From the NCBI RefSeq assembly GCF_002873335.1, contig NZ_MCUW01000068.1, forward strand, positions 1 to 64,000: DNA of 64,000 nucleotides, given 5' to 3'. Origin of the DNA: Vibrio sp. 10N.286.49.B1. GTDB taxonomy: Bacteria; Pseudomonadota; Gammaproteobacteria; Enterobacterales; Vibrionaceae. The notes below the pieces were generated by a model, which saw only the letters and a list, made by a program, of their open reading frames with translations, did no database searches and had not been told where the DNA came from. The position numbers and the translations under genes are program-made. Positions 5,740 to 29,292 of the stretch are shown here, one piece after another. Within the stretch, counting starts at the first letter, position 1. Each line of letters starts with the position of its first letter.

Positions 5740-6741
5740 TTAAACGTCGAGTTCTTTCGGAATTTTAGTCAGTGCCGTTTGAATCACTTCAACGCCTGCG
5801 CCCTTCTTATGCGCATTTTCACTAATATAACGACGCCATTGTCTGCCACCAGGTAAAGCTTGGAATAAACCAATCATATGTCGGCTGATATGCCCAAGAT
5901 TAGAGCCATTAGCAAGTTGCTTCTCAATATACGGATACATCGCCTCCACAACCTGACTGCGTTTCTTCACAGGCGTGTCCATTCCAAAGATGGTTTGATC
6001 AACCTCAGCCAGTAAATACGGGTTTTGATAAGCTTCGCGCCCAATCATCACTCCATCTAAGTGCTCTAAATGCTCTAACGACTCAGCTAACGTTTTTATC
6101 CCGCCATTAACGCCAATCTGTAAGTGCGGGAAATCTTTCTTAATTTGATACGCACGAGGGTAATCTAGCGGCGGGATCTCTCGGTTCTCTTTTGGACTCA
6201 AGCCACTTAACCATGCTTTACGAGCATGAATGGTAAAGTCCTCACAACCCCCTTGCTCTGAAACATGAGACACAAAACGCGTAAGAAACTCGTACGAGTC
6301 CTGATCATCAATCCCGATTCGAGTCTTCACCGTCACAGGAATAGAGACCACAGCTTTCATTTCCGCAATACATTCAGCCACCAGCTCAGGCTCCCCCATG
6401 AGGCAAGCCCCAAAGCGACCATTTTGAACACGATCTGACGGACAACCAACATTGAGGTTGATTTCATCATAACCACGCTCTTGAGCAAGCTTCGCGCACG
6501 TTGCCAAATCGGTTGGGTTTGAACCGCCTAACTGCAATGCGACAGGATGCTCTTCAGTATTGAACGCTAAAAAGTCACCTTTACCGTGAATAATTGCCCC
6601 CGTCGTAATCATCTCGGTATACAACAAGGCTTGCGAGGAAAGCAAACGATGGAAATAACGACAGTGCCTATCCGTCCAATCGAGCATGGGTGCAATTGAA
6701 AGGCGAGCTGCGCTGTAATTACTAGGGTTTTCAGGTGTCAT
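5740..6741 (-). CDS. dusA: tRNA-dihydrouridine synthase A (DusA), chimeric 5' end
   Basis: DusA reduces uridines in the tRNA D-loop using FMN and NADPH. The 333-residue protein shows [14 protein letters not shown] at the N-terminus, [14 protein letters not shown] with the catalytic Cys, and the HARKAW motif. Codons 1-16 and the promoter region lie on the phage side of the attL core (6674-6693), so the coding start is supplied by the integrated element. A displaced alternative dusA start is found at 20612-20692. The reading frame is intact, so the enzyme is probably made. It is a known integration target for dusA-associated integrases. Confidence 0.94.
6674..6693. repeat. attL core, 20-bp direct repeat in dusA
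   Basis: This 20-bp sequence inside the 5' end of dusA is repeated exactly at 20622-20641. Both copies encode the IAPMLDW segment of DusA on the minus strand. The two copies bracket the integrase-to-Qrr block and are the expected recombination cores of a dusA-specific integrase. Confidence 0.85.
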
Positions 6742-6850: not shown

Positions 6851-7915
6851 ATGGCATCATTCAGCATTAAAAAACGCACACTGAAAAACGGTGAATCTCG
6901 CTTTACAGTAGACGTTGTGGTTAAAAAGAATTCGGCGATTATACACAGAGAATCAAAAACATTCAGGAAAAAAGAACATGCCCGAACCCATGCTATGAAA
7001 AGGGTTCGCGAGCTAGAAAATCCGTACTCAGAGCAGCAAAAATCCGTACCAATATACGTACTGCTCGATCAGTTTATGGAAGAGTCTGATTTATGGGATA
7101 AAACCGGCCGAACGAAGCAATACGTCATCAAGATGCTCCGCGATTGCGACATAGGTAATGTTGAAACTGACCAACTCAAAACCAGTGATTTAATTCAGCA
7201 CTGTAAACACCGCAAAGCAGCGGGTGCAGGTGGCGCGACTATCTATCATGATGTGGCTTACTTGCGATCAGTGATGAAAAAGGCAAAACCCGTATTCAAT
7301 ATCCGCGCTAACTTTCAAATTTTTGAGGAGGCCGTCCCCGTTCTCTCCGATATGGGGCTGATATGTAAAAGTCAGAAACGAACAAGGCGCCCAACCAGTG
7401 AAGAGCTTGCGGATTTACGTAACGGTTTAGAAGAAAGACAAAACACCCGCGCGAACGGCCAGATTCGAATCCCATTCATCGACATACTGGATTTCAGTAT
7501 TCTTACTTGTATGCGGATTGGTGAAGTGTGTGCGCTTCGTTGGGAAGACATAAACGAAGAACATCGCACCGTGTGGGTACGCGATCGCAAAGACCCACGC
7601 AAGAAACAAGGTAATCATATGATTGTGCCGCTCTTAGCTGAATCGTTTGATATTGCTATGCGCCAACCGAAACAAGGTGACCTGATTTTTCCGTACAACT
7701 CTAGAAGCGTGACGGCAGGGTTTCAGCGCGTTAGGAATAGCTTAGGGATTGAGGATTTACGCTATCACGATTTAAGGCGTGAGGGTGCCAGTAGGTTATT
7801 TGAAAAAGGCTACTCCATTGAAGAAGTAGCACAAGTTACTGGTCATCGTAATTTGAATATTTTGTGGCAGGTTTATACGCAGTTATTTCCGCATAAGCTG
7901 CATAGCAAAATGTAG
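6851..7915 (+). CDS. Tyrosine-type site-specific integrase (dusA-associated)
   Basis: The integrase recombines the phage att site with the 5' end of dusA. The catalytic set is visible: Arg222 in TCMRIGEV, His306 and Arg309 in YHDLRRE, His332 in GHRN, and Tyr342 in WQVYTQL, the nucleophile. An N-terminal arm-binding domain occupies about residues 1-60 and a SAM-like core-binding domain about 65-180. A 354-residue length is normal. The GGAGTAGGACG just before the ATG supports the start. It is transcribed away from dusA. A deleted paralogue lies at 20793-21147. Confidence 0.93.
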   Translation: MASFSIKKRTLKNGESRFTVDVVVKKNSAIIHRESKTFRKKEHARTHAMKRVRELENPYSEQQKSVPIYVLLDQFMEESDLWDKTGRTKQYVIKMLRDCDIGNVETDQLKTSDLIQHCKHRKAAGAGGATIYHDVAYLRSVMKKAKPVFNIRANFQIFEEAVPVLSDMGLICKSQKRTRRPTSEELADLRNGLEERQNTRANGQIRIPFIDILDFSILTCMRIGEVCALRWEDINEEHRTVWVRDRKDPRKKQGNHMIVPLLAESFDIAMRQPKQGDLIFPYNSRSVTAGFQRVRNSLGIEDLRYHDLRREGASRLFEKGYSIEEVAQVTGHRNLNILWQVYTQLFPHKLHSKM

Positions 7916-7999: not shown

Positions 8000-8659
8000 C
8001 TAGCCTGCATTCAAGTTTTCAATACGCACTAACCAATCATTGAAGTGTTTACATTGACTACGCATCTCATTTAATCCGATATCACAAGCTATCAATGGTC
8101 CGTGTAATGTCTTTTTATAGTTAGGCATAATAGAGAGTATACGTTTTGATGGTGCGGTTTGAGGGCTATTGTTGATGTGTTCTGGGCTGATAAAAGATGC
8201 CTTTACTTCTAATAGCCTTTCTATCGGGTCGGTACTGTCTAACCAGTATTCAAACTGCGATGGGTCACAGAATAAGAGCGCTTCATATTCATGTAGTAAC
8301 AGATTTCCGATGAAGTTTTGTTGATTAATATCATTTTCAAAAGCCTGTTCTAGATACTTCACTTTATCGAAAGCATCATTTTTACCTTGATATTCTTGCG
8401 ACTTAAAGTTTGGAAAATCTGTAGGCAAACCATAGAAGTCAATTAGGGTTGTAACATAAGCGTCCTTATCTTCCTTACACAATCGTTCAACTTGGTGTTT
8501 GACTTTACCATAGCTAACTATGCCACCTTTATACCCCTTACTGGTTTGCGCTAGAATTGGCGTAAAGAAGATATTTCTCTGAGAAAAATATGGCGTTAGA
8601 ACTTCATAAACAAAAGTTTCTTCTGTCTGGCCTTCGACAAAAATCTTAACCCTGATCAA
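8000..8659 (-). CDS. DUF4276 family protein, TOPRIM-like (putative defence effector)
   Basis: A 219-residue protein with hallmarks of the DUF4276 family: KIFVEGQTEETF near residues 5-16 (the acidic TOPRIM-like motif), TLIDFYGLP with an Asp, and LLLHEYEALLFCDP. In related systems a TOPRIM protein is the nuclease or effector partner of an ABC/AAA ATPase. The best start is TTG at 8659: it overlaps the stop of the ATPase gene and has GGGAGG upstream, while the longer ATG reading (8695) begins inside the ATPase gene. The function is inferred from family and neighbour only; nuclease activity is not demonstrated. Confidence 0.8.
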   Translation of the reverse strand: MIRVKIFVEGQTEETFVYEVLTPYFSQRNIFFTPILAQTSKGYKGGIVSYGKVKHQVERLCKEDKDAYVTTLIDFYGLPTDFPNFKSQEYQGKNDAFDKVKYLEQAFENDINQQNFIGNLLLHEYEALLFCDPSQFEYWLDSTDPIERLLEVKASFISPEHINNSPQTAPSKRILSIMPNYKKTLHGPLIACDIGLNEMRSQCKHFNDWLVRIENLNAG

Positions 8660-9747
8660 CGCTGTGGCCTCCCGCCCAATAGATTTTTCTTCCACATATC
8701 ACCAAGACTAAACTCTTGTAACCATTCAGTTAACAGATTTTCATCTAGGCGTTTAAATGTAGATGCGCTGCCAACTCGGTCTACGACTATTAAATCTTCA
8801 ATGTCAAACTCATTCACAAGTTCTACTGATTGAGTAGAAACAATTAATTGATGATTATTACTTGCAGAAGATATTAATGAAGCTAATACCGAAATAGCAT
8901 AAGGGTGAAGGCCTAGTTCTGGTTCATCAACTATGATTGCACTTGGTTTATACTCTTCAGGTTGGAGTAATACGGCAGCTAAACATATAAAACGTAGCGT
9001 CCCGTCTGATAATTCATTTGCTTTAAATGGAATGTCTTGGTTTTTTTCGGTCCATTCCAGTTCAATGAAGTCAGGATTGTTAGGTGTCGGCCTCAAGTTA
9101 AAGTCACCAAAAAAAGGAGCAACCATCTGTATAGTTTTTACTATTCGTTTGTAATTGTTCTGATGATTCTCCTTCAGTCGAAACAAAAATGCAGCCAAAT
9201 TTGCTCCATCTTCCCTTAGATAATCATTATCATTAATTCTATGGACTTGCTTAACTTTGGCAGAATCACTGGTGTCATGAAAATGATAAACTCTCCATCG
9301 ACGCATAATTGGCAACGTGTAACTTTTAACACCAGAACGATGATTTTCTACTTGAGACTCGAAATGACCCGAATATACACCTATATCACCACTCACGTTC
9401 CACCATAGAGCTTCACGCGAAAAGACCATTCTGTTGTCATTTGTAGGCTCTAATTCAAATTTATATCCGTTATTCCCAAAGTAGAACTCACCTGTAATGC
9501 TATCAGATATTTTCCTACCAAAGTGAAGAAGAGCATCAGGCCCCCCTGATTTGCTCACCGTTAATTGCAAACGATGGTCTAATATAGAGGGAATAAGTTT
9601 TAAAAAAGAAATAAAATTCGACTTACCAGCACCATTAGCACCGATTAGAACATTAAGACACCCCATTTTAATGTCACAATGTTTAATAGACTTGTAGTTT
9701 TCGATTAACAATTGACTTAATTGATCTGAGCTAGTGACTGTTTTCAT
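8656..9747 (-). CDS. AAA family ATPase, RecF/OLD-like (putative defence sensor)
   Basis: A 363-residue ABC-type ATPase of the AAA_21/RecF-like class. Walker A is GANGAGKS at residues 36-43. A signature-like ELSDGTLRF lies near 255, and Walker B IIVDEPELGLHP near 285 is followed by an STQS switch region. No nuclease domain is fused, so the DUF4276 neighbour is the likely partner. The start overlaps the upstream RHH gene (ATGA) and the stop overlaps the DUF4276 start, so all three are one coupled operon. The pairing resembles the ATPase/TOPRIM layout of OLD and PARIS systems, but the exact system type is not assigned. Confidence 0.85.
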   Translation of the reverse strand: MKTVTSSDQLSQLLIENYKSIKHCDIKMGCLNVLIGANGAGKSNFISFLKLIPSILDHRLQLTVSKSGGPDALLHFGRKISDSITGEFYFGNNGYKFELEPTNDNRMVFSREALWWNVSGDIGVYSGHFESQVENHRSGVKSYTLPIMRRWRVYHFHDTSDSAKVKQVHRINDNDYLREDGANLAAFLFRLKENHQNNYKRIVKTIQMVAPFFGDFNLRPTPNNPDFIELEWTEKNQDIPFKANELSDGTLRFICLAAVLLQPEEYKPSAIIVDEPELGLHPYAISVLASLISSASNNHQLIVSTQSVELVNEFDIEDLIVVDRVGSASTFKRLDENLLTEWLQEFSLGDMWKKNLLGGRPQR

Positions 9748-10434: not shown

Positions 10435-10450
10435 TTGGGTGACTCCTACT

Positions 10451-14000: not shown

Positions 14001-14834
14001 TTATTTCGGTTGAGAAATCACGCCCACTTGCTCGATCGCTTCAATCAATACCGGAATGCTGCCCGCCGCTGATTTCTCGATCTCAAACTGCAATTGTTTA
14101 TAGGCGTTAGTTGGCAAGCGCCCCTCAACACCAAAGCCGGTACGAACGAAGTCCAAAGAAAACCAGTCTTCATTTTGTTCAAGCTCAGAAAGGGCAAGGT
14201 CAAAGGCGTTATCGACTTTATTGACGTTCATTTCTTCCACGTCATCACGCAGTACGCGAACACGGTCGATAGAGCTGTCTTTAAAGTGAATACGTTTTAG
14301 CGATAAGGCAGGGGAACGCTCTGAAAAATCAAACGGCGTTCGACCTGTCGCACTCGCAAACCACGTCAGCGAGTAAATACGAGGCAAGTAGATACGTGTT
14401 GATTGCGCCGCCGTTGAATGGGCACGAGCACGGATACTTGGTGGATTAACGCCACCCGCTTTAGGGGCGAGCTGAATGTAAACAAACCAAATTTCACCGT
14501 TCAGTGTCACTAGCTCACCCGTACGAACGCCCGCTTTTGTGCGCAGTTTTAGATCAGCAAATGGAATGACATAACGACCGGACGATTGGTATTGCTTACG
14601 ATGTTCCTGAAGGTCAACAAGATCTTGTCCGGTGAGGTTGTACACCTCTTTACCGTTCAAGGTAATACGCACACGCTCAATATCGGCAGGGTCAGCAATA
14701 TCAGTAACTAACTCAATAGACTGATAAGTAGGACCACTAACAAGGCGCAGTGTGGCTTGGTTGCCCCAATTCACACCCTCAACAGGGTCTAAATCACGAG
14801 GACGTGGGTTAAATGGTGTCGTGAGTAGTTCCAT
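14001..14834 (-). CDS. Major capsid protein, PM2 P2-like double jelly roll
   Basis: The 277-residue product resembles the corticovirus PM2 capsid protein P2 (269 residues). After a short N-terminus, SGPTYQSIELV is followed by DIERVRITLNGKEVYNLTG, then QDLVDLQEHRKQY, a run that parallels the P2 text around its VELDG segment. Later, LSLKRIHFKDSSIDRVRVLRDD and the DWFSLDFVRTG segment parallel the second jelly roll. It is soluble with mainly beta composition and lies next to the packaging ATPase and membrane genes. The similarity was judged by eye; a profile search or structure prediction would settle it. Confidence 0.75.
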   Translation of the reverse strand: MELLTTPFNPRPRDLDPVEGVNWGNQATLRLVSGPTYQSIELVTDIADPADIERVRITLNGKEVYNLTGQDLVDLQEHRKQYQSSGRYVIPFADLKLRTKAGVRTGELVTLNGEIWFVYIQLAPKAGGVNPPSIRARAHSTAAQSTRIYLPRIYSLTWFASATGRTPFDFSERSPALSLKRIHFKDSSIDRVRVLRDDVEEMNVNKVDNAFDLALSELEQNEDWFSLDFVRTGFGVEGRLPTNAYKQLQFEIEKSAAGSIPVLIEAIEQVGVISQPK

Positions 14835-17127: not shown

Positions 17128-18939
17128 TTAGTAAGTGATTAATCGACCTTGTTTGAGCCTAATTTTGCAGTATTGGTCAATGGTGACCGTTCCCCCTTTT
17201 GATAATGGTTTGAGAAGACATTCCACCCCCTTCATGCTCCATCCGGTCGCGTCCATAAGCGCTTTAATTATTGGAGAGTTACAGTTATTTTCAGTGCTCC
17301 AAGGTACGGCACTCCGTGCCTTTTGAAGACGCTTCACGTCTTTTTTACGAACGAGGCTATAGCACTCGCTTGCGGTTTTAATGAGAGCCCCAAGCCAAGA
17401 AAAGCCAATGATTTTTTTGTTGGTTTCACCGTACTGATTTTGCTTCGATTCGTATTCGACTCGCGCACCGTTGGCGAGCTGGCAAAACAACGACCACTTT
17501 GATGAATCCGCCGCTTGTCTTAGTTCTTCCAGTTTTGGGTCTATCTTGGTTTGCTCTGCGGTTGCCCTACGAAGATTGCGCCACAGTGAAACAGGCTGAC
17601 CACCAAATTGTTGAAACTGTCTGATACGGTGAGTGGATGCCCAAGCGCGAGCACGATAGGCATATTCTTCCGATTCCGTTTCAGGCATATGCTTGCCGTT
17701 AATGTTTTTTGAAACGTACTTAGCGATGTAGGCCGTTGCCCCGCCTTTTTTTGGATCGGCTTCTTTCACATCAAAGCGTGGTGAAATATCTTTGCCTAAC
17801 TCGCTCCGGTCTTCCCCTATCGCGCACCCTTTTAGAATATTGGTGATCGTGGTTTTGTCCTTCGGTGAGCAAAACAAAAAATAGTGAGAATGGCTCGTTG
17901 AATCTTTATGAGGTTCAGCCACACGGAAACCAAAATACTCAATATTCTCTTTAGCAATAAGAGCACGAGCGACCGCCCACTTTTGCATGAGCGCTTGATG
18001 CCCTTCTTTCACAGAGGCGCCATTCCACTTTCTCGACACTCGGTGATATTTGCTTGGTAATGTCCAAGTGACGAACAAAGCAGTAAACCCTAAGTCCAGT
18101 GCAAATTCCTCAAAACCGCGAGAACGCACCATCATTTCAATGCGTCGATTCTCTGGGTTTGCCGTAGTCCTTTTGATCACTTCCTCTAAATCGAATGCTT
18201 CCCCCGTTTCCGTATTCATTACTGACATGGCCTCTATGTACTGTTTCGCTTCGCGTTGCTTTTGCTTCCAGTTTGAAAAAGACATGGCACTAATCACCGG
18301 CGCTTGGTGCTTACCTTCACCAACACGTTCTAGGGCAATTTGTACATATTCGATGTACTGCGATCGCAAATGCAAAAGTCGGCGTACTATCCATTCGTCG
18401 GATTGCATCTTGAGCGCGGCTATTTCGAGATCGCATTCCAGTTCGTCAGGCTTATCCTGTTCCTTCCTGAAATTTATCTTCGGTGGGTTGATATGGATTT
18501 CTTGCAAGGTGAAGGATTGACGCTCATAAACATGCTTGAGCGCTTCAAGATAGCTATTAAAAATCTCCGGTAGGCTTTCATCACTTAGCATCGTTGAGCA
18601 CGTATCGGCATAATTTTTTGCGAGCTTTTCAATGGCATCGTCGCGCATCAAAATATCATGGCTTAATGGTTCAGCACTGGCCTTGTATCGGCTATCCACA
18701 AACGAAAATTTATCTTCAATGAAACTCGCTCGCTTCAAACCAAACTTAACCGCATCTTCTGCAGCACGAATAAGGTTTTGAGTAGTTGGGTTACTGCGAG
18801 TCATGCGCTGTTCGACTTTACGTTTCACATCGTTTTTCACCATTTGAGGCAAGCGCGGAAAGAATCGGCGGGTAAACGCTGAAAGGCGTAATACGTCTGC
18901 CGCCTCCAACGCTGCCACTTCATTGATAGCTTTCGTCAT
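17128..18939 (-). CDS. HUH rolling-circle replication initiator (GpA/P12-like)
   Basis: A 603-residue initiator of the P2 GpA/phiX174 A class, as in PM2 (P12). Motif 1 is FVTWTLPSKYH near residue 290. The HUH-type metal site is SHSHYFLF near residue 350. Motif 3 has two tyrosines in AYIAKYVSKN near residue 403, one of which would cut and covalently hold DNA. The frame is open to 19062, but the ATG at 18939 starts right after the preceding gene and matches the gene layout. A heavily decayed copy remains in element 2. Confidence 0.88.
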   Translation of the reverse strand: MTKAINEVAALEAADVLRLSAFTRRFFPRLPQMVKNDVKRKVEQRMTRSNPTTQNLIRAAEDAVKFGLKRASFIEDKFSFVDSRYKASAEPLSHDILMRDDAIEKLAKNYADTCSTMLSDESLPEIFNSYLEALKHVYERQSFTLQEIHINPPKINFRKEQDKPDELECDLEIAALKMQSDEWIVRRLLHLRSQYIEYVQIALERVGEGKHQAPVISAMSFSNWKQKQREAKQYIEAMSVMNTETGEAFDLEEVIKRTTANPENRRIEMMVRSRGFEEFALDLGFTALFVTWTLPSKYHRVSRKWNGASVKEGHQALMQKWAVARALIAKENIEYFGFRVAEPHKDSTSHSHYFLFCSPKDKTTITNILKGCAIGEDRSELGKDISPRFDVKEADPKKGGATAYIAKYVSKNINGKHMPETESEEYAYRARAWASTHRIRQFQQFGGQPVSLWRNLRRATAEQTKIDPKLEELRQAADSSKWSLFCQLANGARVEYESKQNQYGETNKKIIGFSWLGALIKTASECYSLVRKKDVKRLQKARSAVPWSTENNCNSPIIKALMDATGWSMKGVECLLKPLSKGGTVTIDQYCKIRLKQGRLITY

Positions 18940-18943
18940 ATGG

Positions 18944-19135
18944 TTAACCCAAACACTCAGAAGCCGTACACACGTATTGCAGAGGGCGTACCTTTTTCGG
19001 TTTTGAACGGCCAATGCCGTGTTTATCACGCAGCTTGTCCAGTAAGTAAATTGAACGTTCACGCTTCTTTGGGTCGGGATTAACCATACCCGCCATATCG
19101 GGGCATGGTTTGTGAATAGGGTTAGTCACTTCCAT
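18944..19135 (-). CDS. Small phage protein of unknown function, 63 aa
   Basis: A basic, Pro- and Cys-containing 63-residue protein (CPDMAGMVNPDPKKRERSIY...VCTASECLG). The four Cys could bind metal but the spacing is not a standard zinc finger. It sits between prtN-like genes and rep in the early operon. The function is unknown. Confidence 0.55.
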   Translation of the reverse strand: MEVTNPIHKPCPDMAGMVNPDPKKRERSIYLLDKLRDKHGIGRSKPKKVRPLQYVCTASECLG

Positions 19136-19731: not shown

Positions 19732-20337
19732 ATGAGCGAGTTTGAGTTAAGTTTGAGGAAGCTTAAAGAAGTAACAAATACCTCGACAAATGCAGAGCTA
19801 GCAAAGGTTTTAGAGATTTCTCCAAAGACAATTTATACGTGGAGAGAACGCCAAAATATCCCTGAAAAAATATTCTTAAAAGCACGACAGCTATCACAAA
19901 AATCCGTTAGTTTGCCCGTCGGTTATCTCGCATTAAAATTTTTCGATATTGAAGTAAGTGCCGGACAAGGAGCACTTATCGAGAAAGAAGAAGAATCTAG
20001 CGCAATGGTTTTCAGTGAGCGGTTCATTAGACAAGAGCTTGGATTTAACCCTAATGACATTTTCTTAATGCCTGTCCGTGGTGACAGCATGATCCCCACT
20101 CTAAAAAATCAAAGCATCGTTATGGTGAATCGGGTTGATGGTTTTTCTACAGATGGTATTTACGTATTCCGCTATGACAATCGCTTGATGGTTAAAAGAC
20201 TCCAATTCCTACCGAACGGCATAAAAGTGGTGAGTGATAACAGCGCTTATGAGCCTTGGGAACTTGGGAAAGAAGATATTAAAGGGGCTGATTTTAAGAT
20301 CATCGGTGAGGTGGTTTGGTCTGGGCAAAGGATGTAA
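19732..20337 (+). CDS. LexA/CI-type phage repressor with S24 peptidase domain
   Basis: The N-terminal CI-type HTH lies at about residues 15-45 (NAELAKVLEISPKTIYTWRER). The C-terminal S24 peptidase has Ser119 in RGDSMIPTL and Lys155 in RLMVKRL, and an Ala77-Gly78 cleavage site in EVSAGQG. The repressor should therefore self-cleave on RecA filament contact, giving SOS induction. It is the only rightward phage gene on this side and keeps the prtN-led operon off. Its 3' end converges on the Qrr terminator. Confidence 0.9.
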   Translation: MSEFELSLRKLKEVTNTSTNAELAKVLEISPKTIYTWRERQNIPEKIFLKARQLSQKSVSLPVGYLALKFFDIEVSAGQGALIEKEEESSAMVFSERFIRQELGFNPNDIFLMPVRGDSMIPTLKNQSIVMVNRVDGFSTDGIYVFRYDNRLMVKRLQFLPNGIKVVSDNSAYEPWELGKEDIKGADFKIIGEVVWSGQRM

Positions 20338-20341
20338 GAAG

Positions 20342-20448
20342 AAAAAAGCCAGTTACCAAGGGGGTAACTGGTAAATTAATCTATGTGAACAAAGGTATTC
20401 ACTAACAACGTCAGTTGGCTAGGTGACCCTCGGCTTAATAAGGGTCGT
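20342..20448 (-). ncRNA. qrr: Qrr-family quorum regulatory small RNA, copy A (phage-borne)
   Basis: The minus strand shows the Qrr family plan. A 5' hairpin GACCCT/AGGGTC (20441-20446 with 20425-20430) is followed by the invariant target-pairing text CTAGCCAACTGACGTTGTTA then GTGAA. An A/T-rich stretch follows, then a terminator (CCAGTTACC/GGTAACTGG) and six T. Length is about 107 nt, normal for Qrr. Qrr RNAs use Hfq to pair with luxR/hapR, aphA and other mRNAs. This copy lies between cI and attR, inside element 1. There is no sigma-54 promoter at the usual position; a TAGATT box is at 20454-20459. Confidence 0.88.
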
Positions 20449-20566
20449 ATCGAAATCTAGAGGAAAAGCCAAATGACCTCCATACCACTTTAGGGTTGTG
20501 CGCTGTTCTTATTCGTTATTACATGACATAGAACAAAAAGATAGAGAAAACATATAAAACAAAGGT

Positions 20567-20586
20567 AGTACGGACTTAGTACGTAT
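20567..20586. repeat. Right copy of the arm-like repeat
   Basis: AGTACGGACTTAGTACGTAT, 18 of 20 identical to 6816-6835, ends 35 bp from the attR core. Together the two copies sit inside both ends of element 1. Confidence 0.5.
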
Positions 20587-20611
20587 GACTCGCTTTGAAG
20601 CCTGATATAGC

Positions 20612-20692
20612 TTAAAAGTGAGTCCAATCGAGCATGGGTGCTATGGAAAGACGGCTTGAATGGAAATCGCTTGTGTTGTCTGGCTTCATCAT
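20612..20692 (-). pseudogene. dusA: Displaced dusA 5' fragment
   Basis: The minus strand encodes MMKPDNTSDFHSSRLSIAPM then LDWTHF and a stop, a DusA N-terminus cut at the att core. It differs from the N-terminus now fused to dusA. It is best read as the start that element 2 once supplied, pushed aside when element 1 integrated. Confidence 0.8.
20622..20641. repeat. attR core of element 1
   Basis: Exact 20-bp copy of 6674-6693, within the dusA fragment. Confidence 0.85.
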
Positions 20693-20792
20693 TGTTTTAC
20701 CTAAGTTTTTAACCATTCAAATCCGCTTTGAATATCATGGATATTTCGCCCAAATTCGTCCTGTAGTACCCCTCAAAGAGTAGGACGACGGA

Positions 20793-21147
20793 ATGGCTTC
20801 TCTATCAATTGAAAAACGGCAGCTACAAAGCAACCATCATCGTGAAGAAAAAGCAGGCAATAATACACAGAGAATCGAGAACTTTCAAAAAGAAAGAGCT
20901 TGCGAAGACCTATTTCCCTTATAACTTTGGAAGTGTGACGGCAGGGTTTCAGCGCGTTAGGAATAGTTTAGAGATTGAAGATTTGCGCTACCACGATTTA
21001 AGGCGTGAGGGTGCCAGTAGGCTATTTGAAAAAGGCTACTCTATTGAAGAAGTAGCCCAAGTGACTGGTCATCGGAACTTGAATATTTTGTGGCAAGTTT
21101 ATACGCAGTTGTTTCCACATAAGTTACATAGCAAGAGCTTTGAATGA
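20793..21147 (+). pseudogene. Internally deleted integrase
   Basis: It begins ATGGCTTCTCT, homologous to the element 1 integrase, is frameshifted within the first 10 codons, and lacks about 230 central residues (about 47-279). The C-terminal catalytic part (YHDLRREGASRLFEKG, GHRN, Tyr) is intact in frame from 20809. It cannot encode a full recombinase because the core-binding domain and first catalytic Arg are gone. Confidence 0.85.
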
Positions 21148-21667
21148 GCTAACCGGCATCTCTGTACAATACAAATCACTTTTTATCGTTTTGCAGCCAA
21201 AGGTCACGCTTTTAAACAACCAACGGCCACTGTCTTATTTTCACCAAAAATCAAGGTTTTTATTTTTGAAGTGAGCAAAAATAACCCGAATTGCTCGCAA
21301 ATTAATTTTAAGATATGACAACCACTTAGCTGAGTTGTAAGTGGTTACTAACCTTTATATTCCCTTTCGTAAGTTATCCACAGTAATAGCAATTTGTGAA
21401 CTTGAATTTATTTTGCAGGGTGCTTATCTTGTACCCAGAAAAACAAAAACAACCATATATAGGGTTTCGGAGGTCAATTATGCATTTAAGATAATAAAAA
21501 CCCCTAACTAGGTCGCTAGGGGTAGTGCGACCGTCACATTTACCAAAGTACGATATTACCAGTATCGAAAGGTGAACGTTCAGCTCGACTTGAACAGTAA
21601 AAGCTTAACTTCTCCTCCTTACTTTGGCAAATACAAAAATATCATATTCACTTATGAGGTATTTCTA
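21148..21667. other. Non-coding stretch in element 2
   Basis: No convincing gene is seen. It contains one perfect DnaA box (TTATCCACA, 21374-21382) and two overlapping hairpins at 21500-21532. Confidence 0.5.
21500..21532 (-). terminator. Overlapping hairpins, minus-strand terminator candidate
   Basis: Stem 1 (21500-21506 with 21517-21523) is followed on the minus strand by a T-rich run. Stem 2 (21511-21516 with 21527-21532) shares bases with it, so the two are mutually exclusive, as in attenuators or antisense RNA ends. Confidence 0.4.
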
Positions 21668-21928
21668 ATGCCAAAAGACCGAAAAAACACAAAGAAAAGG
21701 GGCAACATTGAAGCTTTTCGTAACAGCATCGTTGCAAAAATATCACTTCGAAGCCCTACGACCACATTCAACTTATCGTTATATTACTCAAAAGCTACAA
21801 GACCTAAAAGCAGACATCTACAAACTAAAAGGAGCAGTGACGACTCAATAGTAAAAATCGTTTTAATTGGGCTTGGCACAGAAATCCTGAGAGTAGTTTT
21901 ACACTCACTAGAGTTCCCTATAGCTTAA
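21668..21928 (+). CDS. Doubtful ORF in element 2
   Basis: From the ATG at 21668 (MPKDRKNTKKRG, GAGG upstream) the frame encodes a basic, low-quality product. A different frame within it, from a TTG at about 21708 with AGGGG upstream, reads KLFVTASLQKYHFEALRPHS and then YRYITQKLQDLKADIYKLKG, which looks more protein-like (about 43 residues, ending near 21850). Either one frame is real or this is a frameshifted gene. No homologue is recognised; it replaces the defence-like cargo seen in element 1. Confidence 0.25.
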   Translation: MPKDRKNTKKRGNIEAFRNSIVAKISLRSPTTTFNLSLYYSKATRPKSRHLQTKRSSDDSIVKIVLIGLGTEILRVVLHSLEFPIA

Positions 21929-21986
21929 TGCATAGTTGCAGCTAAGTGACGTTGTGGTCAAAACAGACTCTCTTTGACCACAACGG

Positions 21987-22160
21987 TTAGCTACATCTAA
22001 ATACTATTGAGTTTTTTTCAAGCTCATTCACCTTTTGAATTAGCTTTCCCAGAAGAACATTTGTGTTTCTGATATTCTGCCAAAGCATTCCCAATATCAA
22101 AATTTCAGTCGGTTTTAAACCCAACTCTGCAAGGACAGGTAATATCGGTAAATCAATCAT
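21987..22160 (-). CDS. 57-residue helical protein of element 2
   Basis: ATG at 22160 overlaps the stop of the upstream gene (GAATGA). The product begins MIDLPILPVLAELGLKPTEI and ends with a coiled-coil-like helix (NVLLGKLIQKVNELEKN). It occupies the place of the 53-residue protein of element 1 but is unrelated, so the last gene of the operon is exchangeable. The function is unknown; a lysis or exclusion role is possible. Confidence 0.55.
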   Translation of the reverse strand: MIDLPILPVLAELGLKPTEILILGMLWQNIRNTNVLLGKLIQKVNELEKNSIVFRCS

Positions 22161-22363
22161 TCAGATCCCTTAAACTCATCCCGTATCGCTTCCCACAAGC
22201 CAAGCAGTAACGGCGCCACTGCGCCAATCACCCCACCCATTTGCACACCGTCAGGCGTAACGCTTGCCGTCAATAACTCAGGGTGACCAGTGACAAGGGC
22301 AACACCCGCACCAATTAACGCTAACCCTTTTTTTGTTGATGGTTGATTCAAGTCTATTTTCAT
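22157..22363 (-). CDS. Holin-like small membrane protein, element 2 copy, 68 aa
   Basis: Starting at MKIDLNQPSTKKG (22363), it is about 90 percent identical by eye to the 66-residue gene at 10234 and keeps both hydrophobic segments. It is an intact frame in an otherwise decayed element. Confidence 0.65.
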   Translation of the reverse strand: MKIDLNQPSTKKGLALIGAGVALVTGHPELLTASVTPDGVQMGGVIGAVAPLLLGLWEAIRDEFKGSE

Positions 22364-22379
22364 TTGGGTTACTCCTACT

Positions 22380-22469
22380 CTAGCCATTAATACGCTTCCA
22401 GATATACGCGCTGATTAAAGCGGTGAAAATGCCCACCGCGACTCGTTGCATCATTTCTTTTTGATTCAT
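22380..22469 (-). CDS. 29-residue membrane protein, element 2 copy
   Basis: Same protein as 10451-10540 with silent changes only, which argues for coding function. The ATG overlaps the stop of the muralytic fragment. Confidence 0.6.
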   Translation of the reverse strand: MNQKEMMQRVAVGIFTALISAYIWKRING

Positions 22470-22700
22470 ACCAGGGCGACTCTTTGTTTCGCATCCGGTA
22501 GCGAGTAATAGCGCCCGACTTCCATAATCGACATAGCGTGAACCAAGCGAGCGAGCAATTCGTTATCGGCTAGGTTGAGCGCGGCGTTTGGTGAGATATT
22601 CAATTGCCTTGCCACGAACTGCGAGTAATTCGCGGTGTCGTTTTGATTGCTTGGCGCCCAACGTCCCCGATGATCTCGTTGGTGCAGTTTAGCTCATAGA
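22466..22700 (-). pseudogene. C-terminal fragment of the muralytic gene
   Basis: Homologous to the last 75 or so codons of 10537-11013, with a frameshift near 22665. It is abruptly joined at about 22700 to sequence that follows rep in element 1, a deletion junction. Confidence 0.8.
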
Positions 22701-22702
22701 GT

Positions 22703-22725
22703 ATTTGGCCTATGATAGGCCAAAT
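22703..22725 (-). other. Post-rep hairpin, element 2 copy
   Basis: Arms 22703-22712 and 22716-22725, matching 17103-17125 except for the loop and adjacent bases. Confidence 0.5.
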
Positions 22726-22739
22726 ACTTAATCGTTCTA

Positions 22740-22990
22740 ATTTTGTTTCGACTCATAGTCAACTCACACACCGTTGGCAAACTGGCAGTGCAACCATTAG
22801 TTAGAGGAGGCCGCGGCTTTTCTTCAGACTGAGTTCTATCTTGTTTGCTCCGGTGTTTTACAACCAATCTCGTTGTGTTTACTTTCACCGAATCTTCTAA
22901 GGCAATAGCAAGATCCTAATACAGTTCATCTGGGTTACCTGGTTCCTTACTGAAACGAATGTATCGTGAATTGATTGCAGGGCGAGGCAT
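22740..22990 (-). pseudogene. Decayed rep fragments
   Basis: Short blocks match rep of element 1: 22742-22790 with about 17440-17490, 22815-22860 with about 17510-17570, and 22920-22965 with about 18435-18480. They are separated by deletions and stop codons. Confidence 0.65.
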
Positions 22991-23069
22991 CACCGCGCTT
23001 GAAAAGAAAGAAATATAAGGGACCGGTTTTGGGCCGCCGGTGAGGTGATAGTGTCAGGATAAAGAATCT

Positions 23070-23177
23070 AAAAAAAACCAGTTACCAAGGCGGTAACTGG
23101 TCAATAAATTGATGTGAACAAAGTTATTCACTAACAACGTCAGTTGGCTAGGTGACCCTCGGCTTAAAAAGGGTCAT
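23070..23177 (-). ncRNA. qrr: Qrr-family small RNA, copy B
   Basis: Same plan as copy A: 5' stem GACCCT/AGGGTC (23170-23175 with 23154-23159), invariant CTAGCCAACTGACGTTGTTA core, and a terminator of CCAGTTACC/GGTAACTGG with eight T. The loop and linker differ from copy A while the stems and core are identical. It lies at the end of element 2 that corresponds to the Qrr position in element 1. A TAAATT box is at 23183-23188; no sigma-54 motif is seen at the expected spacing. Confidence 0.88.
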
Positions 23178-23190
23178 CTACGAATTTACA

Positions 23191-23415
23191 TGACAACAAG
23201 ACAATTAACCACACTACTTTTGTGGTATTTACTTTTCTTTTTCAGACACTTGATATCAATAATCTACAGCCTATCTTGCATCCGGTAGGGCGTGATATCA
23301 CCAATATCACACACGGTGAGCGAACAAGTCACTATCAGAAAATGGATTACTGATATTATTCCAGCAATCCATTACCTAAGATTCTAGGTTTCCCCTCATA
23401 AAGAATGTTCAACTC
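23191..23415. other. Gap between Qrr B and the LysR gene
   Basis: No gene is seen. It contains an 8-bp inverted repeat AATGGATT/AATCCATT (about 23340-23373) and a short stem ACCTA/TAGGT downstream of the LysR stop, a weak terminator candidate. Confidence 0.4.
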
Positions 23416-24336
23416 TTATGCAGATACGGTATTCATGGCAGCCTCATTAATTTTATTTCTTAGCCAAACAATCGATGGATCACGATTTCTCGATGTTGAC
23501 CAATGTACACCGACCTCAATTTCTTGTTCAAGGAAACTATTACTTAGTACTTTTAACTTATATAAGTCTGCGTTTTCAACGGCCATTTTTCTAGTAAACA
23601 CAACCAAATTATCACCATATCTGATTGACGATAATAGCCCCCAATAACTTGCGACCTGTCTTTTAACTTGCCTTTTTTTTAACAATTCTACTGTCGCATT
23701 AGAAAAACTCTCAAAAGACTTATCATTGTCAGAGAGGCTTGAAAGCGTAATGTGATGATGATTTAAGAATTCACTTTCAAGTATCCGACTTCCAGAAAAA
23801 TCAGGATGATTACTCCTGCAGACCACCACCAATTCATCCTTATAAATCACCTGTGATTTGATGAAAGGTTCCGTTTTTATCGACCCTTCGATTGAGACAT
23901 CAATAATCCCCTGCCTCAACATATCTCTCGTCTTTTTAGCGCTATGATCATCCACGTAAATAGTGATATTTGGCGCCTCTTTTTCAACCAACCTAAAAAG
24001 CTCTGGTATTAAAGAGTGTTCAAATAGACTCATGGTTGATATTTTGAACACTCGCTTGCTTGAAGCGGGATCAAATCGAGTTTTTGTTGCTGATAGCATG
24101 TCTAGCTTTAATATTACATCTGCAATATCTGGGTATATTTCTAAAGCAAATGGGGTTGGCCTAACACCTGATTTTTCCCTAATAAAAAGAGGATCATTAT
24201 AAATATCCCGCAACTTAGAAATACTCTGACTGACTGACGGCTGGCTAATACCTAATCTCTTCGCTACTTTCGTATACTTTCGCTCCTCTACCACAGCAGC
24301 AAAAATAGCTAATAAGTGATATTCATTAAATTTCAT
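23416..24336 (-). CDS. LysR-type transcriptional regulator
   Basis: A 306-residue regulator with an N-terminal winged HTH (HLLAIFAAVVEERKYTKVAK then RLGISQPSVSQSISKLRD) and a substrate-binding domain from about residue 90. The start at MKFNEYH (24336) is chosen over upstream ATGs because the HTH normally begins within the first 10 residues. It is divergent from the large lipoprotein gene with 142 bp between them, so it probably regulates that gene. The effector is unknown. Confidence 0.85.
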   Translation of the reverse strand: MKFNEYHLLAIFAAVVEERKYTKVAKRLGISQPSVSQSISKLRDIYNDPLFIREKSGVRPTPFALEIYPDIADVILKLDMLSATKTRFDPASSKRVFKISTMSLFEHSLIPELFRLVEKEAPNITIYVDDHSAKKTRDMLRQGIIDVSIEGSIKTEPFIKSQVIYKDELVVVCRSNHPDFSGSRILESEFLNHHHITLSSLSDNDKSFESFSNATVELLKKRQVKRQVASYWGLLSSIRYGDNLVVFTRKMAVENADLYKLKVLSNSFLEQEIEVGVHWSTSRNRDPSIVWLRNKINEAAMNTVSA

Positions 24337-24478
24337 GGTTCTCATTAGGATATAAAGATTTTTATATCTAATAGTACCAGATTTTATTCTCAAAAAAGTA
24401 CACTTCATGAGTTTAATATCTTAATTACAATAATTTAAATAAAGCACAATAATTTTAAATACGAAGGACGTCCGAGTA

Positions 24479-27400
24479 ATGAAAAAAATCAGCTTGCTAG
24501 CAGCAGCGATTACAGTGGTTTTAACGGGTTGTGGAAGCGATGATTCAAGCTCTTCTAGTACCCCAATAAGCACATCGTTCACTATCACCGCAATTGATGG
24601 GTACCTATATAGAGCTAATGTCTATACCGGTGATAACTGTGACCAATTTATTGACCAGACTAACCAAGAAGGTCAACTGACACTAACTAATGAAACCATT
24701 AACAAAAAAGTTTGTATTAAAGCCGTAGCCGGTGAAACTATTGATATGACTCGTGGTGTCGTTGTTGATGACTTTGCACTTGCGGCACCTGAAAATTCTG
24801 GTCAATCCATTATTGTTAGTCCGATGACGAATCTGGTTGTTGAGCAAATCAATTTAGCAAGTGCAAGCAATATTGAAGTGACACAAGAAGAAGCGGAACA
24901 AGCTGTAATTGATTCTTTCAATACCCACGAAGATGTTATTTATACACATGAAGATATCTTTGGTGATTATATTGATGCAGCTGACGGTGAAGGTAAAGAG
25001 ACCGAAAAGGCGAAAACCATTAATATTGTAGGTGAAGCTTTAGTTGATAATAATGATGTGCTTGAGGTAAATGATCAACTACAAGTCATTTATGATATTT
25101 CAGAAGAAACATCGCATATTATTGCCGATGAAGAACAAGCGTTAGACAATAGTTACGCGCCTGTTATTGAAACCGGTGAGAATGGTTATGTTGGCATCAT
25201 TCCAAATAATCGCCCAGTAACAAAAGAAGTTAGTAAACCAAAGACTATCGATTTAGGGACTTCACTTAACTATGCGCTAGACACGTTATTTATTGATAAT
25301 AATGGTGATGATTTAAGTTACACCGTCGATGCCTCAGAAGCCGCTGGCGCCGCTATTACTACAAACACGTCGATGCTGACTATTACCCCCACTTTAGCAG
25401 GAACTTATGATGTATTAGCGTATGCATCTGATGAAGTATCTCGCTCTTACCCGTTAGTGCTAAAAGTCACAGCCGTTACACCAAATACCGCACCAATTTT
25501 GAATGAACAAAATACCTTGCAAGCGGATCTTGATGCTCTAGGGCTGACAGCAACAGTAAGCACCGATGAACGATTGTCGATTAGTGGCTTATTTACAGAT
25601 GCTGATAACGATCCTCTGATTTATGCTGTCACCGACGTGACAGAAAGTGGCTTGAGTATCAACGTAAACAACGCCAATACTGAACTGCATGTTATTGGCA
25701 CCCCAAGCCAAGAAGGAGCATTCACATTTGATATAACCGCTTATGATGGTGTTCACTCAGCAGTGAGCCAGACCTTTACTCTCAATGTTACCAAAGCGCC
25801 AAATACTCCCCCTATATTAGAGCCTACTCAGCACCAACGTGTGGCTGATGATCTAACCGCGCTTGAATTGCGAGTCGGTACTGCTGTTAATGGGTATATT
25901 AACATTGAGCAACTGTTTAGCGATGATGATGAATTAACACTCACTGTACAAGACAAGATCGCTGGCGTCGAAACCAATATCGATGGTGCTATTCTCACCC
26001 TATTAGGCACACCGACAGAACAAGGCAATCAAGGTTATCCTGCTTTAGACATCACTGCTGATGATGGCGTAAATACTCCTGTATCTGCCTATTTTGACAT
26101 ATTTGTTGCTGAAGAGGACAACGTTGATCCGGTAGACCCTGTTACACCAGCCCCTACCCCACTCTTTGAAGAGAAACACTTTATTGGTGGCTATTGGCGT
26201 ATGGGTGAGATTGGCGAAGATATCGGCCTGGAACACGATTTTAACGGTGACCTAGAAATGGGTTGGGCCTCATTGCTGAAAGAACAAGAACAGCACTATT
26301 TTTGTTGGGACAAGAGTCTTGATATCCAAACCCCAGAGCAACTTGAAGAGTTAGAAACACCAGAAAACAAAAAGCTGATAATCAACCCAAACAGTGAGGA
26401 TTGCAGGCCTGTCGATATCCAACCTGATGGCACATTATTGGGCGAAGGTAAGATTTACACCCCAGTCTACACCTCAGAAAAAGATGGTGACTATCAGATT
26501 GTGTTTGAAATTGAAGGCGACTTGTACTGGTTAGATTCCACCCAAGATTTACCATTTACGGCAATGTTACCTGTCCCACCAATGGATAAAACGGTTTATC
26601 AGAGTATTGATTGGACCGAAGGTTCTGGTGTTGAGGTACTCCTACGTAGTGCAGATTTTACCGTTAACGAACAGAATATTTATGCCTCAGACGTAACAAA
26701 GTCTGGAACATTTTTCGGACGTGAACTCGATGTCAATGACCCGTTAATTTGGATCGGCACCTGGGAGATTTCCAAACCAGGAGAGGATCAAGAGCTATTG
26801 AGCTATGACGCACATCACGCTGCTAGCTACGAACAGCGCTATATGCGCCAATTTAATGGTGGAGAGTTGAGCATTCTTGTTGCACAGCATGGTGACGAAG
26901 TTGGTGAAAAAGTAGATATCGTATTAGAGTCGAACGATCTAGCTTTATTACGACGTATCAATGCAGTATGGGACCCACAACCTGCGCAACCAACCCCTCT
27001 TAATCCAAGCCTACTCGAAGGGAAGACGTTCTATTTTACTGAAAATGGCGCCGCTACAGGTGGTGGCGAGTCCTTAAAACATCATGTTGTATGGTGTGAT
27101 GCCGTCAAGTTTGAAGACGGTAATTATTATTTTAGTCAACGTAATCCGTCGAACAGAACGGCCTGCCCAACAGACGCGGATCTCCTTGACGAAGGCTCGT
27201 ACTCCATTGATGAGGAAAATTCACGCTTAGTTGTTAAGAATGGTATTAACTCCGCAACTCATACCGTCATTGGGGATGCGAGTGACATCTCACAAGGTGC
27301 GCTTTCTGTCATATCTAACGGTGAACGCTACACCTACTTCACAGATAAAAGCTCTGTTGAAGACCGTTTGGATGCCAAATCCAGCACCAATGGTGAGGCA

Positions 27401-27760
27401 AGTAATAGCTTTGGCTTCTACTTACCTACGGAGCAAATGAACCACTCTCAACTGGGTAAAATCAGCATCAGTTTGACGCCGTTTAATGCAAATATAACGT
27501 TTGAGAAAGAAATCGATGGTGATGAGATGAGTTGTGAAATAATTCATGACTACTTTGACGGTTTTTGGTTAAGCTCTGGCGATAGCGCTAATTATGAGTG
27601 GGAATGTAGTCGCGATATTCAAGGCATTGTTTCAGTTAACATCCCAAGCAGGTTTGCATTGGATACCAATACTGTATACAGCGTAATTGGCACTTCAGAA
27701 AATAAGTATCAAGAATCCATAAAATACAGCATTCACTGGGATGAAACATTAGCGGATTAA
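24479..27760 (+). CDS. Large surface lipoprotein with Ig/cadherin-like repeats
   Basis: A 1093-residue protein with a lipobox (VVLTGCGSD, Cys18) followed by a Ser-rich tether. The region about residues 30-200 resembles a carboxypeptidase-regulatory or adhesin-type N-domain (TAIDGYLYRANVYTG). Three Ig/cadherin-like domains follow at about 245-330, 335-440 and 440-550, each with LFTDADNDPL or LFSDDDEL calcium-type motifs. The C-terminal half (about 560-1093) is of unknown fold with DGDYQIVFEIEG-type beta segments. It is probably exposed on the outer membrane and lies within the dusA-zur island. The function is unknown; adhesion is a guess. Confidence 0.75.
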   Translation: MKKISLLAAAITVVLTGCGSDDSSSSSTPISTSFTITAIDGYLYRANVYTGDNCDQFIDQTNQEGQLTLTNETINKKVCIKAVAGETIDMTRGVVVDDFALAAPENSGQSIIVSPMTNLVVEQINLASASNIEVTQEEAEQAVIDSFNTHEDVIYTHEDIFGDYIDAADGEGKETEKAKTINIVGEALVDNNDVLEVNDQLQVIYDISEETSHIIADEEQALDNSYAPVIETGENGYVGIIPNNRPVTKEVSKPKTIDLGTSLNYALDTLFIDNNGDDLSYTVDASEAAGAAITTNTSMLTITPTLAGTYDVLAYASDEVSRSYPLVLKVTAVTPNTAPILNEQNTLQADLDALGLTATVSTDERLSISGLFTDADNDPLIYAVTDVTESGLSINVNNANTELHVIGTPSQEGAFTFDITAYDGVHSAVSQTFTLNVTKAPNTPPILEPTQHQRVADDLTALELRVGTAVNGYINIEQLFSDDDELTLTVQDKIAGVETNIDGAILTLLGTPTEQGNQGYPALDITADDGVNTPVSAYFDIFVAEEDNVDPVDPVTPAPTPLFEEKHFIGGYWRMGEIGEDIGLEHDFNGDLEMGWASLLKEQEQHYFCWDKSLDIQTPEQLEELETPENKKLIINPNSEDCRPVDIQPDGTLLGEGKIYTPVYTSEKDGDYQIVFEIEGDLYWLDSTQDLPFTAMLPVPPMDKTVYQSIDWTEGSGVEVLLRSADFTVNEQNIYASDVTKSGTFFGRELDVNDPLIWIGTWEISKPGEDQELLSYDAHHAASYEQRYMRQFNGGELSILVAQHGDEVGEKVDIVLESNDLALLRRINAVWDPQPAQPTPLNPSLLEGKTFYFTENGAATGGGESLKHHVVWCDAVKFEDGNYYFSQRNPSNRTACPTDADLLDEGSYSIDEENSRLVVKNGINSATHTVIGDASDISQGALSVISNGERYTYFTDKSSVEDRLDAKSSTNGEASNSFGFYLPTEQMNHSQLGKISISLTPFNANITFEKEIDGDEMSCEIIHDYFDGFWLSSGDSANYEWECSRDIQGIVSVNIPSRFALDTNTVYSVIGTSENKYQESIKYSIHWDETLAD

Positions 27761-27796
27761 TTCGGTCTACTAGACGTGATGCTTTGATAAATATAG

Positions 27797-27818
27797 AGCC
27801 CTGCAGTGCAGGGCTTTT
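27797..27818 (+). terminator. Terminator of the lipoprotein gene
   Basis: AGCCCTGCA/TGCAGGGCT palindromic stem followed by TTTT, 37 bp past the stop. Confidence 0.7.
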
Positions 27819-28112
27819 GGGTCATACCTTCGCTCTATTTTCAACTAAGTGATAGCCAAGCGCACCAAGATGCTCAATCTACTGGCCATGCTGCCCCTTT
27901 TTGACGACACGTTAAGTTTGAGTGTTCTAATGTGTATACACATTAAGAGTATTTGAGTATCTCATTCGGAATACCATAACGATAATGATCCCATGATAGT
28001 GTCGCTGCCAACTTAGTGATGGGACATTGCTACGCATCCGCTTTAGCAAGTAGAACTGACCATTACGCAGAACTCTAAAAGCATAACGATCGTTTGCCTT
28101 GGGAAAGAATAA

Positions 28113-28224
28113 GAAAAGATAAGCCAGTTACCATTAATCATAACTGGCTTATACAAGATGTGAACAATGAGTATTCACTAACAACGTCAGTTGGCTAGAT
28201 AACCTTCAACTTAATAAAGGTCGT
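28113..28224 (-). ncRNA. qrr: Qrr-family small RNA, copy C (diverged)
   Basis: The core CTAGCCAACTGACGTTGTTA then GTGAA is identical to copies A and B. The first stem has changed on both sides (GACCTT/AAGGTT, 28217-28222 with 28201-28206), keeping most pairs. The terminator stem is a perfect 10 bp (28121-28130 with 28141-28150) with a new 10-nt loop but a weaker T run. A plausible promoter is TTTTCA (28251-28256), a 16-bp spacer and TATATT (28229-28234). No sigma-54 box is seen. Confidence 0.83.
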
Positions 28225-28842: not shown

Positions 28843-29292
28843 GTGAATCAACCGTTAATCAAGCAAGTCGAAGATATTTGTGCCGCTCGTGGCGTTCGTT
28901 TAACCCCACAGAGACGTCAGGTATTTACACTCATATGCGACAATAAAAAAGCATCCAGTGCTTATGAGTTACTGGAACAGTTAAAAGCCAGCGAACCCCA
29001 AGCTAAGCCTCCGACTGTATACCGAGCTCTAGATTTTCTCTTGGAACAGGGGTTTATTCATCGCGTAGAATCCACAAATAGCTTTGTCTCGTGCTGTTCA
29101 TTTGGTGAACACAAGCACTTTTCTCATCTCCTTATTTGTGACAAATGCGGTAATGTCGTTGAATTACAAGATGATAGTCTGATAGCCTTGTTGAATAGCA
29201 ACGTTGATAAATATGGCTTTCAATATTCCAACCACGTTATAGAATCTCATGGTACCTGTCAGACGTGTTCGTCATTGGAAGATCACACATAA
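28843..29292 (+). CDS. zur: Zinc uptake regulator Zur (Fur family)
   Basis: A 149-residue Fur-family repressor. The winged-helix part is RGVRLTPQRRQVFTLI to PPTVYRALDFLLEQG. Metal-binding residues include the HKHFSHLLICDKCG segment (Cys pair) and CQTC near the C-terminus, which form the structural zinc site. With zinc, Zur represses znu and zrg genes; a candidate box lies at 47761-47779 of this window. GTG is the start, at 28843. The gene defines the right flank of the island. Confidence 0.9.
   Translation: MNQPLIKQVEDICAARGVRLTPQRRQVFTLICDNKKASSAYELLEQLKASEPQAKPPTVYRALDFLLEQGFIHRVESTNSFVSCCSFGEHKHFSHLLICDKCGNVVELQDDSLIALLNSNVDKYGFQYSNHVIESHGTCQTCSSLEDHT

Follow-up and report, generated by a model that had tools for sequence, protein, structure and literature searches.

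The 64-kb stretch of Vibrio DNA analysed here (the window) contains three genes for Qrr small RNAs, two of which (copies A and B) lie in DNA of PM2-like prophages at dusA and lack the sites through which LuxO controls other Qrr genes. Our preferred reading, to which we assign a probability of about 0.6, is that A and B are Qrr cargo of these prophages, an RNA uncoupled from LuxO that would hold the lysogen towards the low-density state. It draws directly on location, homology, the missing LuxO sites, folding and seed, the predicted pairing with luxR, and the fact that the host has both luxO and luxR.

A search with the Rfam covariance model of Qrr (RF00378, gathering score 50), which an earlier note on this DNA had proposed as a check of its three minus-strand Qrr genes, gave exactly three matches at gathering level in the window, all on the minus strand and of full length, with E-values of 1e-16 to 2.5e-15 (cmscan; Table 1). 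The three genes are therefore real, and the coordinates first given for them were off by just 1-3 nt relative to the cmscan ends. The 20-mer Qrr core is exact in A, B and C, and in all three the 5' hairpin, a second hairpin and the terminator with its U-rich end fold, in agreement with the core, 5' hairpin and terminator described earlier for each copy. Since the copies are mutually divergent (A-B 88%, A-C 75% and B-C 72% identical over the alignment), an assembly duplicate is excluded; copy C is 72-75% identical to A, B and the resident Qrr L001. The window genome (G000) has five Qrr genes in total, namely A, B, C and those at C10:24664 and C10:161887.

Table 1. Features of the window that bear on the three Qrr genes.
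Feature	Position	Strand	Evidence or remark
dusA, integration gene; 5' end is the att site	5740..6741	-	blast and tblastn to dusA of relatives
Tyrosine integrase, element 1	6851..7915	+	Pfam PF00589, PHROGs integrase
AAA ATPase and DUF4276 pair	8000..9747	-	PF13304, PF14103; PADLOC HEC-01A 508 bits, HEC-01B 296 bits
Major capsid protein, PM2 P2 type	14001..14834	-	PF18628 156 bits, PF25513 132 bits
Rolling-circle replication protein	17128..19062	-	PF05840 249 bits
cI-like repressor with S24 peptidase domain	19732..20337	+	PF00717, PF07022, PHROGs repressor
Qrr copy A	20339..20447	-	Rfam 94.5 bits; in element 1, accessory slot between cI and attR
DNA upstream of copy A, candidate promoter with -10-like TAGATT	20448..20480	-	aligned with B, C and G090
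attR of element 1, dusA 5' coding fragment	20622..20653		matches dusA 5' ends at several loci (blastn)
Integrase remnant, element 2	20911..21135	+	95% aa identity to element 1 integrase residues 279-353
Further element 2 remnant	22157..22466		22167-22466 92% nt identical to element 1 10238-10537
3' end of a decayed cI, adjoining copy B	22998..23067	+	local alignment score 31
Qrr copy B	23068..23176	-	Rfam 94.7 bits; element 2 remnant
Qrr copy C	28114..28223	-	Rfam 88.7 bits; between lipoprotein gene and zur
Fur-family regulator, right flank of the insertion region	28843..29292	+	joined to dusA in G065 (L079)

Element 1 is a PM2-like (corticovirus-type, tailless) prophage in dusA. It extends from an integrase that adjoins dusA to a second, duplicated dusA 5' segment at about 20622-20653, and this attR segment is also matched by blastn between the genome G090 and window positions 6674-6705. 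Its major capsid protein is of the P2-type double jelly-roll kind, with PF18628 and PF25513 above their cut-offs, and it encodes a packaging ATPase (phrog_2666) and a rolling-circle Rep (PF05840). The gene dusA is a published integration target of tailless Vibrio prophages (PMC11630473). Copy A lies between cI and attR, as the earlier note had placed it: 1-2 nt separate its terminator from the cI stop codon, its transcription runs towards cI, and the dusA fragment lies beyond. The AAA ATPase and DUF4276 pair of element 1 is likely to be defence cargo, judging from its domain and PADLOC matches, and its stretch has no nucleotide match in G090.

Element 2 is a decayed remnant, older than element 1. 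An integrase fragment, a further piece with 92% nucleotide identity to element 1 and, directly before copy B, a decayed cI 3' end place B at the position that corresponds to that of A, as had been proposed; none of 1000 shuffles reached the alignment score of this cI remnant. With cI or a cI remnant adjoining each of them, A and B are both supported as members of a dusA prophage family, and their location is firm.

Copy C, also a genuine Qrr, lies next to zur in inserted DNA (zur being the Fur-family regulator of Table 1, so named from its neighbourhood). A cI remnant was sought before C as well, but 6 of 1000 shuffles were as good as the best match, which is off register, so C is not called phage-borne; a third prophage remnant at this place was accordingly rejected, despite a cI-like end that is visible by eye. 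Between element 2 and zur lie a LysR gene and a gene for a 1093-aa lipoprotein (window 23416-27760). The same pair is present between dusA and zur in three other genomes (G057, G044 and G183), and the lipoprotein gene is beside zur in a fourth (G171), in each case without a Qrr; the pair was therefore rejected as phage cargo that brought C, and it does not explain the presence of C.

The dusA-zur site was also found without a prophage. In G065 (L079) the gap between the two genes is about 140 bp, dusA and zur are neighbours in G040 and G145 too, and all Qrr genes of these three genomes are elsewhere, on other contigs. In G044 and G183, which have the LysR-lipoprotein pair at this site, the match table contains no prophage genes between dusA and zur, and the Qrr among the matches listed are all on other contigs. 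Because these sites are without Qrr, Qrr is no resident of the site in the genomes examined; the earlier note had held that the same loci in strains lacking the prophage would show them to be host genes, and the site is Qrr-free in all five. It is thus very improbable that prophages inserted around qrr genes that were already resident in the host. Such a history would agree with copy C, which adjoins a host gene with no phage gene beside it, but it conflicts with the joined dusA and zur of G065, G040 and G145, with the Qrr-free sites that hold only the LysR-lipoprotein pair (G044 and G183), and with the position of A behind cI and of B behind a cI remnant. For A, a resident origin is ruled out by the empty sites.

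The copies of the window are Qrr by RNA and predicted target, not by control. A strict sigma-54 site (TGG[CT][AC]N7TGC at the right distance) is present in 57 of the 63 Qrr copies for which no phage location was demonstrated, and a LuxO-like palindrome (at most two mismatches) was found in 57 of these 57, versus 38 of 1000 shuffles. The other six were set aside after their missing strict site was seen, so that 57 is no independent count, and 29 of the 57 are among the best-scoring matches of the search for Qrr in 227 genomes. No sigma-54 or LuxO-like site was found upstream of A, B, C or the Qrr of G090 (described below), which makes A, B and C Qrr by their RNA and not by their regulation; the absence of LuxO sites is firm for A and B. 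A, B and C thus share with the host Qrr1-5 of Vibrio the core, the three hairpins, the terminator and the predicted luxR pairing, and differ from them in being without the sigma-54 promoter and LuxO-like sites and, for A and B, in being on a prophage. Among the six copies set aside, a degenerate sigma-54 site accompanies LuxO-like sites in L102 and L108, whereas L002 of the window genome and L073, L074 and L075 (of G065, G022 and G089) have neither. These last four are resident Qrr at one syntenic place, and because they are uncoupled too, missing LuxO sites are weakened as a mark of phage origin and as proof of a phage strategy. Together with L002, copies A, B and C bring to four of five the Qrr of the window genome that have no LuxO control sites. 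The syntenic resident Qrr adjoins a DUF445-like gene, named by eye (L081 near 8688, L073 at 7692, L074 at 8262, and L075).

Judging from the upstream DNA, what drives A, B and C does not look like LuxO. When the DNA that precedes A, B, C and the G090 Qrr is aligned, all four have a TANNTT hexamer at the -10 place, which in A may be part of a promoter (Table 1). A scan for sigma-70 promoters left A and B without any minus-strand site; C received a single 9-of-12 site, no better than those of shuffles. An operator-like palindrome precedes the G090 Qrr, and the window does not contain an exact copy of it. Four further Qrr records on plasmids have both kinds of site, two of them with a degenerate end. 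Plasmid Qrr were observed in L226 (pFORC54), near position 6000 and just upstream of umuD, and in L230 and G153:C3; they retain LuxO-like sites and a near sigma-54 site. Five genomes (G154, G131, G134, G060 and G201) have 8-9 Qrr each, some of them a few kb apart, and the copies viewed have sigma-54 sites.

The host possesses LuxO (832 bits, NCBIfam cut-off 800) and LuxR/HapR (373 bits, cut-off 350). The seeds of A and B are predicted to pair with the luxR leader at -20.2 kcal/mol (equalled or bettered by 7 and 3 of 1000 shuffles, respectively), that of C at -17.3 kcal/mol (18 of 1000), that of the resident L001 at -20.2 kcal/mol (4 of 1000) and that of G090, scored only against the luxR of G000, at -16.1 (13 of 1000). 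In A, B and C the predicted pairing covers the stretch of luxR before the start codon, over the ribosome-binding site. The seed was used for this comparison because the duplex of the full RNA with the luxR leader did not discriminate: shuffles were as good in 57 of 200 cases for A, which was thus not separated from them, 12 of 200 for B, 1 of 200 for C and 14 of 200 for L001. A and B share their seed letter for letter with L001, so the pairing is no evidence for phage-specific selection.

It is improbable that Qrr A acts mainly on some other target, whether a phage mRNA, another host mRNA or cI. None of the 23 gene starts of element 1 paired with the seed beyond what is expected by chance for 23 tests, and luxR was the best seed match, equalled by 0 of 300 shuffles against 16 of 300 for the best phage start. 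In the version that concerns cI, this gene and Qrr A converge within 2 nt and read-through from cI would be antisense to Qrr. The convergent layout favours such an effect, as does the detection of a terminator at the junction on the minus strand only, so that cI transcripts may read into Qrr. An action on other targets also accords with phage VP882, for which the effect of Qrr in liquid is OpaR-independent and has an unknown target (PMC11315295).

Qrr was found in 214 of 227 genomes of the genus, a P2_N match in 65 and a match to the element 1 integrase at E<=1e-30 in 76. From the integrase matches 45 were taken, from the top of the list down to G150, each with at least 52% identity or nearly full length; one of these 45 genomes (G028) has no Qrr, and in the other 44 a Qrr within 30 kb of the integrase was present, among the matches listed, only in G000 and G090. 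One or two weaker Qrr copies are unplaced in at least 12 genomes of this count, and therefore 13 comparable dusA prophages with cI, hand-picked rather than random (G089, G030, G194, G179, G118, G141, G143, G085, G144, G003, G081, G046 and G128), were scanned directly with the Rfam model. None of the 13 has a Qrr at gathering level, and a loose search for the core in them gave one chance-like match (L077 at 7373), below the Rfam cut-off. Qrr is thus present in 2 of 15 comparable prophages, those of the window and of G090, Vibrio methylphosphonaticus S4B1, which has a related prophage (integrase 98% and P2 95% identical to those of element 1) whose Qrr likewise occupies the slot between cI and attR. 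The core combined with the CCAGTTA terminator arm was found in one record of the GTDB contig collection, that of S4B1, the window genome possibly not being included in this collection. Copy A as a query had no match in the phage collection.

In six prophages the stretch that follows cI, up to att or zur, was viewed, and in three of them this slot contains recognisable other genes. It holds a 311-aa ORF with HipA_C (34.4 bits) and HIRAN (37.9 bits) matches in G089, a 231-aa ORF in G194, a PemK-like ORF (39.8 bits) in G030 and a 353-aa ORF without a Pfam match in G081, and no ORF of at least 60 aa in G179 and G003. Tailless Vibrio prophages have accessory loci near their borders, often beside a regulator (PMC11630473), and the varied content of the slot agrees with this published locus. 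The presence of Qrr in few prophages and of other genes in the slot indicates that Qrr is rare cargo, one occupant of an accessory slot. The earlier proposal that this phage family carries Qrr as cargo thus stands for A, B and G090 and falls as a statement about the family as a whole; its suggestion to look in related dusA prophages yielded a second species with Qrr in the same slot, and none among the 13 others. Element 1 shares the dusA site, the capsid type and a variable border locus beside a regulator with the published PM2-like dusA prophages of Vibrio, and differs in that its accessory locus holds an RNA gene; the terms Qrr, sRNA and small RNA do not occur in the main text of that publication (PMC11630473).

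The Qrr of element 1 and G090 differ at 9 of 105 aligned positions (91% identical), whereas their surroundings differ more (cI at 100 of 600 positions and the stretch from Qrr to att at 30 of 173, each 83% identical). This difference argues against the possibility, which we consider unlikely, that Qrr A is a passenger captured from a host chromosome by a past imprecise event, its promoter lost, and now silent or decaying. A passenger would be consistent with the lack of a recognisable sigma-54 and a clear sigma-70 promoter for A or B, with the change in the core of the G090 copy (CTAACC) and with the small share of comparable prophages that have a Qrr. It is less readily reconciled with a core that none of A, B and C has altered, although overall they are 72-88% identical, or with the retention of the hairpins and the U-tail, a C-G pair of the first stem being replaced by U-A in C.

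If A and B are instead functional cargo, as we prefer, then A and the older B, in the slot between cI and attR, would have kept the RNA half of a Qrr gene (seed, hairpins and terminator) and have lost, or never had, its control half (sigma-54 promoter and LuxO sites). With the control half absent, Qrr RNA would be expected even when the host qrr genes are off: the lysogen may make it from another promoter despite the shut-off of host qrr by quorum sensing. Together with Hfq, the phage Qrr would bind host luxR/hapR mRNA across its ribosome-binding site, LuxR would be kept low and the cell would be held towards the low-density state, from which the phage might gain a more stable lysogeny or, at high density, weaker anti-phage behaviour. 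The earlier note had already suggested a bias on host quorum sensing, and the missing sigma-54 and LuxO sites together with the predicted luxR pairing make this putative effect much more specific. The closest support for a benefit to a phage comes from Vibrio parahaemolyticus, in which induction of qrr2 raised lysogenic conversion by VP882, independently of OpaR in liquid (PMC11315295); given that result, a phage Qrr would be a direct test of the tie between lysogeny and density.

VP882 resembles element 1 in that its VqmA and VpdS are phage genes that tap Vibrio quorum sensing (PMC10426928, PMC12197685), and differs in the nature of these genes: VqmA encodes a receptor protein, VpdS is a different sRNA, and these sources describe neither as a Qrr. 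No phage-encoded Qrr was found in searches of the open-licence literature (including PMC11315295, PMC10426928, PMC10162802, PMC9966536, PMC11630473, PMC13389391 and PMC12197685), a scope that does not prove novelty. The new point is control, a phage Qrr without the LuxO switch. Receptors such as VqmA are known to let phages eavesdrop on Vibrio quorum sensing; a phage with the central output RNA of the circuit and without its input control would write the signal instead of reading it and, if this RNA is functional, a virus can override the cell counting of its host. Qrr copy counts in Vibrio genomes mix the host circuit with phage cargo.

Qrr and Qrr-like RNAs are also present in other phages. 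A scan of IMG/VR for the exact core identified four tailed phages (L006-L009, Rfam 62.2-74.5 bits), and a shifted core also L111. In L009 a 104-aa ORF that belongs to phrog_27892, a family of unknown function, comes immediately after the Qrr, and an endolysin gene lies farther along. L006-L009 share 88% terminase identity with a cultured phage, Aliivibrio phage vB_Alvi_H905, in which a Qrr-like RNA (43.0 bits, under the cut-off) precedes holin and endolysin genes. L111 has a Qrr-like RNA of 47.6 bits on a contig with P2-like genes by ORF reading; C4 antisense RNA and isrK matches were seen on the same contig at 2311-2546. Further copies are those of the phage-plasmid p1 of Vibrio alginolyticus E110 (41.6 bits in our own model), its relative G044:C3 (47.9 bits, Rfam) and L161 (58.3 bits in our own model). 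Four of these nine copies pass the Rfam cut-off, three are just below it and two were scored by our own model only. No sigma-54 or LuxO-like site was found for the nine, which represent three other kinds of phage, in a search that spanned only 211 and 233 nt in L006 and L007. A scan of viral contigs with a 14-mer gave 68 stretches, four of which are L006-L009; the core was extended in none of the 64 others, and these were dismissed as chance matches (best in our own model, L225 with E 0.012 and L171 with E 0.039). An RNA of 34.6 bits in L232 (G066:C6), near position 6382, is also Qrr-like and without sigma-54 or LuxO-like sites.

It is possible, at somewhat less than even odds, that unrelated Vibrio phages have repeatedly taken up Qrr freed from LuxO, PM2-like phages as cargo behind cI, and H905-like phages and the phage-plasmid as a terminated RNA before the lysis genes. 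If this is true, the infected or lysogenic cell is told that density is low whatever its population, and every aborted late transcript of the H905-like phages and the phage-plasmid would be a Qrr. For the H905-like phages the comparison system is the 6S RNA of lambda, a late-promoter leader. The Qrr-like RNA resembles it in being terminator-ended and just before the lysis genes, and differs in its Qrr-like sequence; the likeness concerns these tailed phages and not copy A. At 11 places with a shared promoter motif (10 stretches on nine contigs, and H905), CCTAGCCAACT is exact in eight, and in the remaining three it has one mismatch, has two mismatches or is absent (one each). The late-leader RNAs before H905-like lysis genes (L006-L009, L112 and L156-L161) have the Qrr seed CCTAGCCAACT, often without the remaining Qrr.
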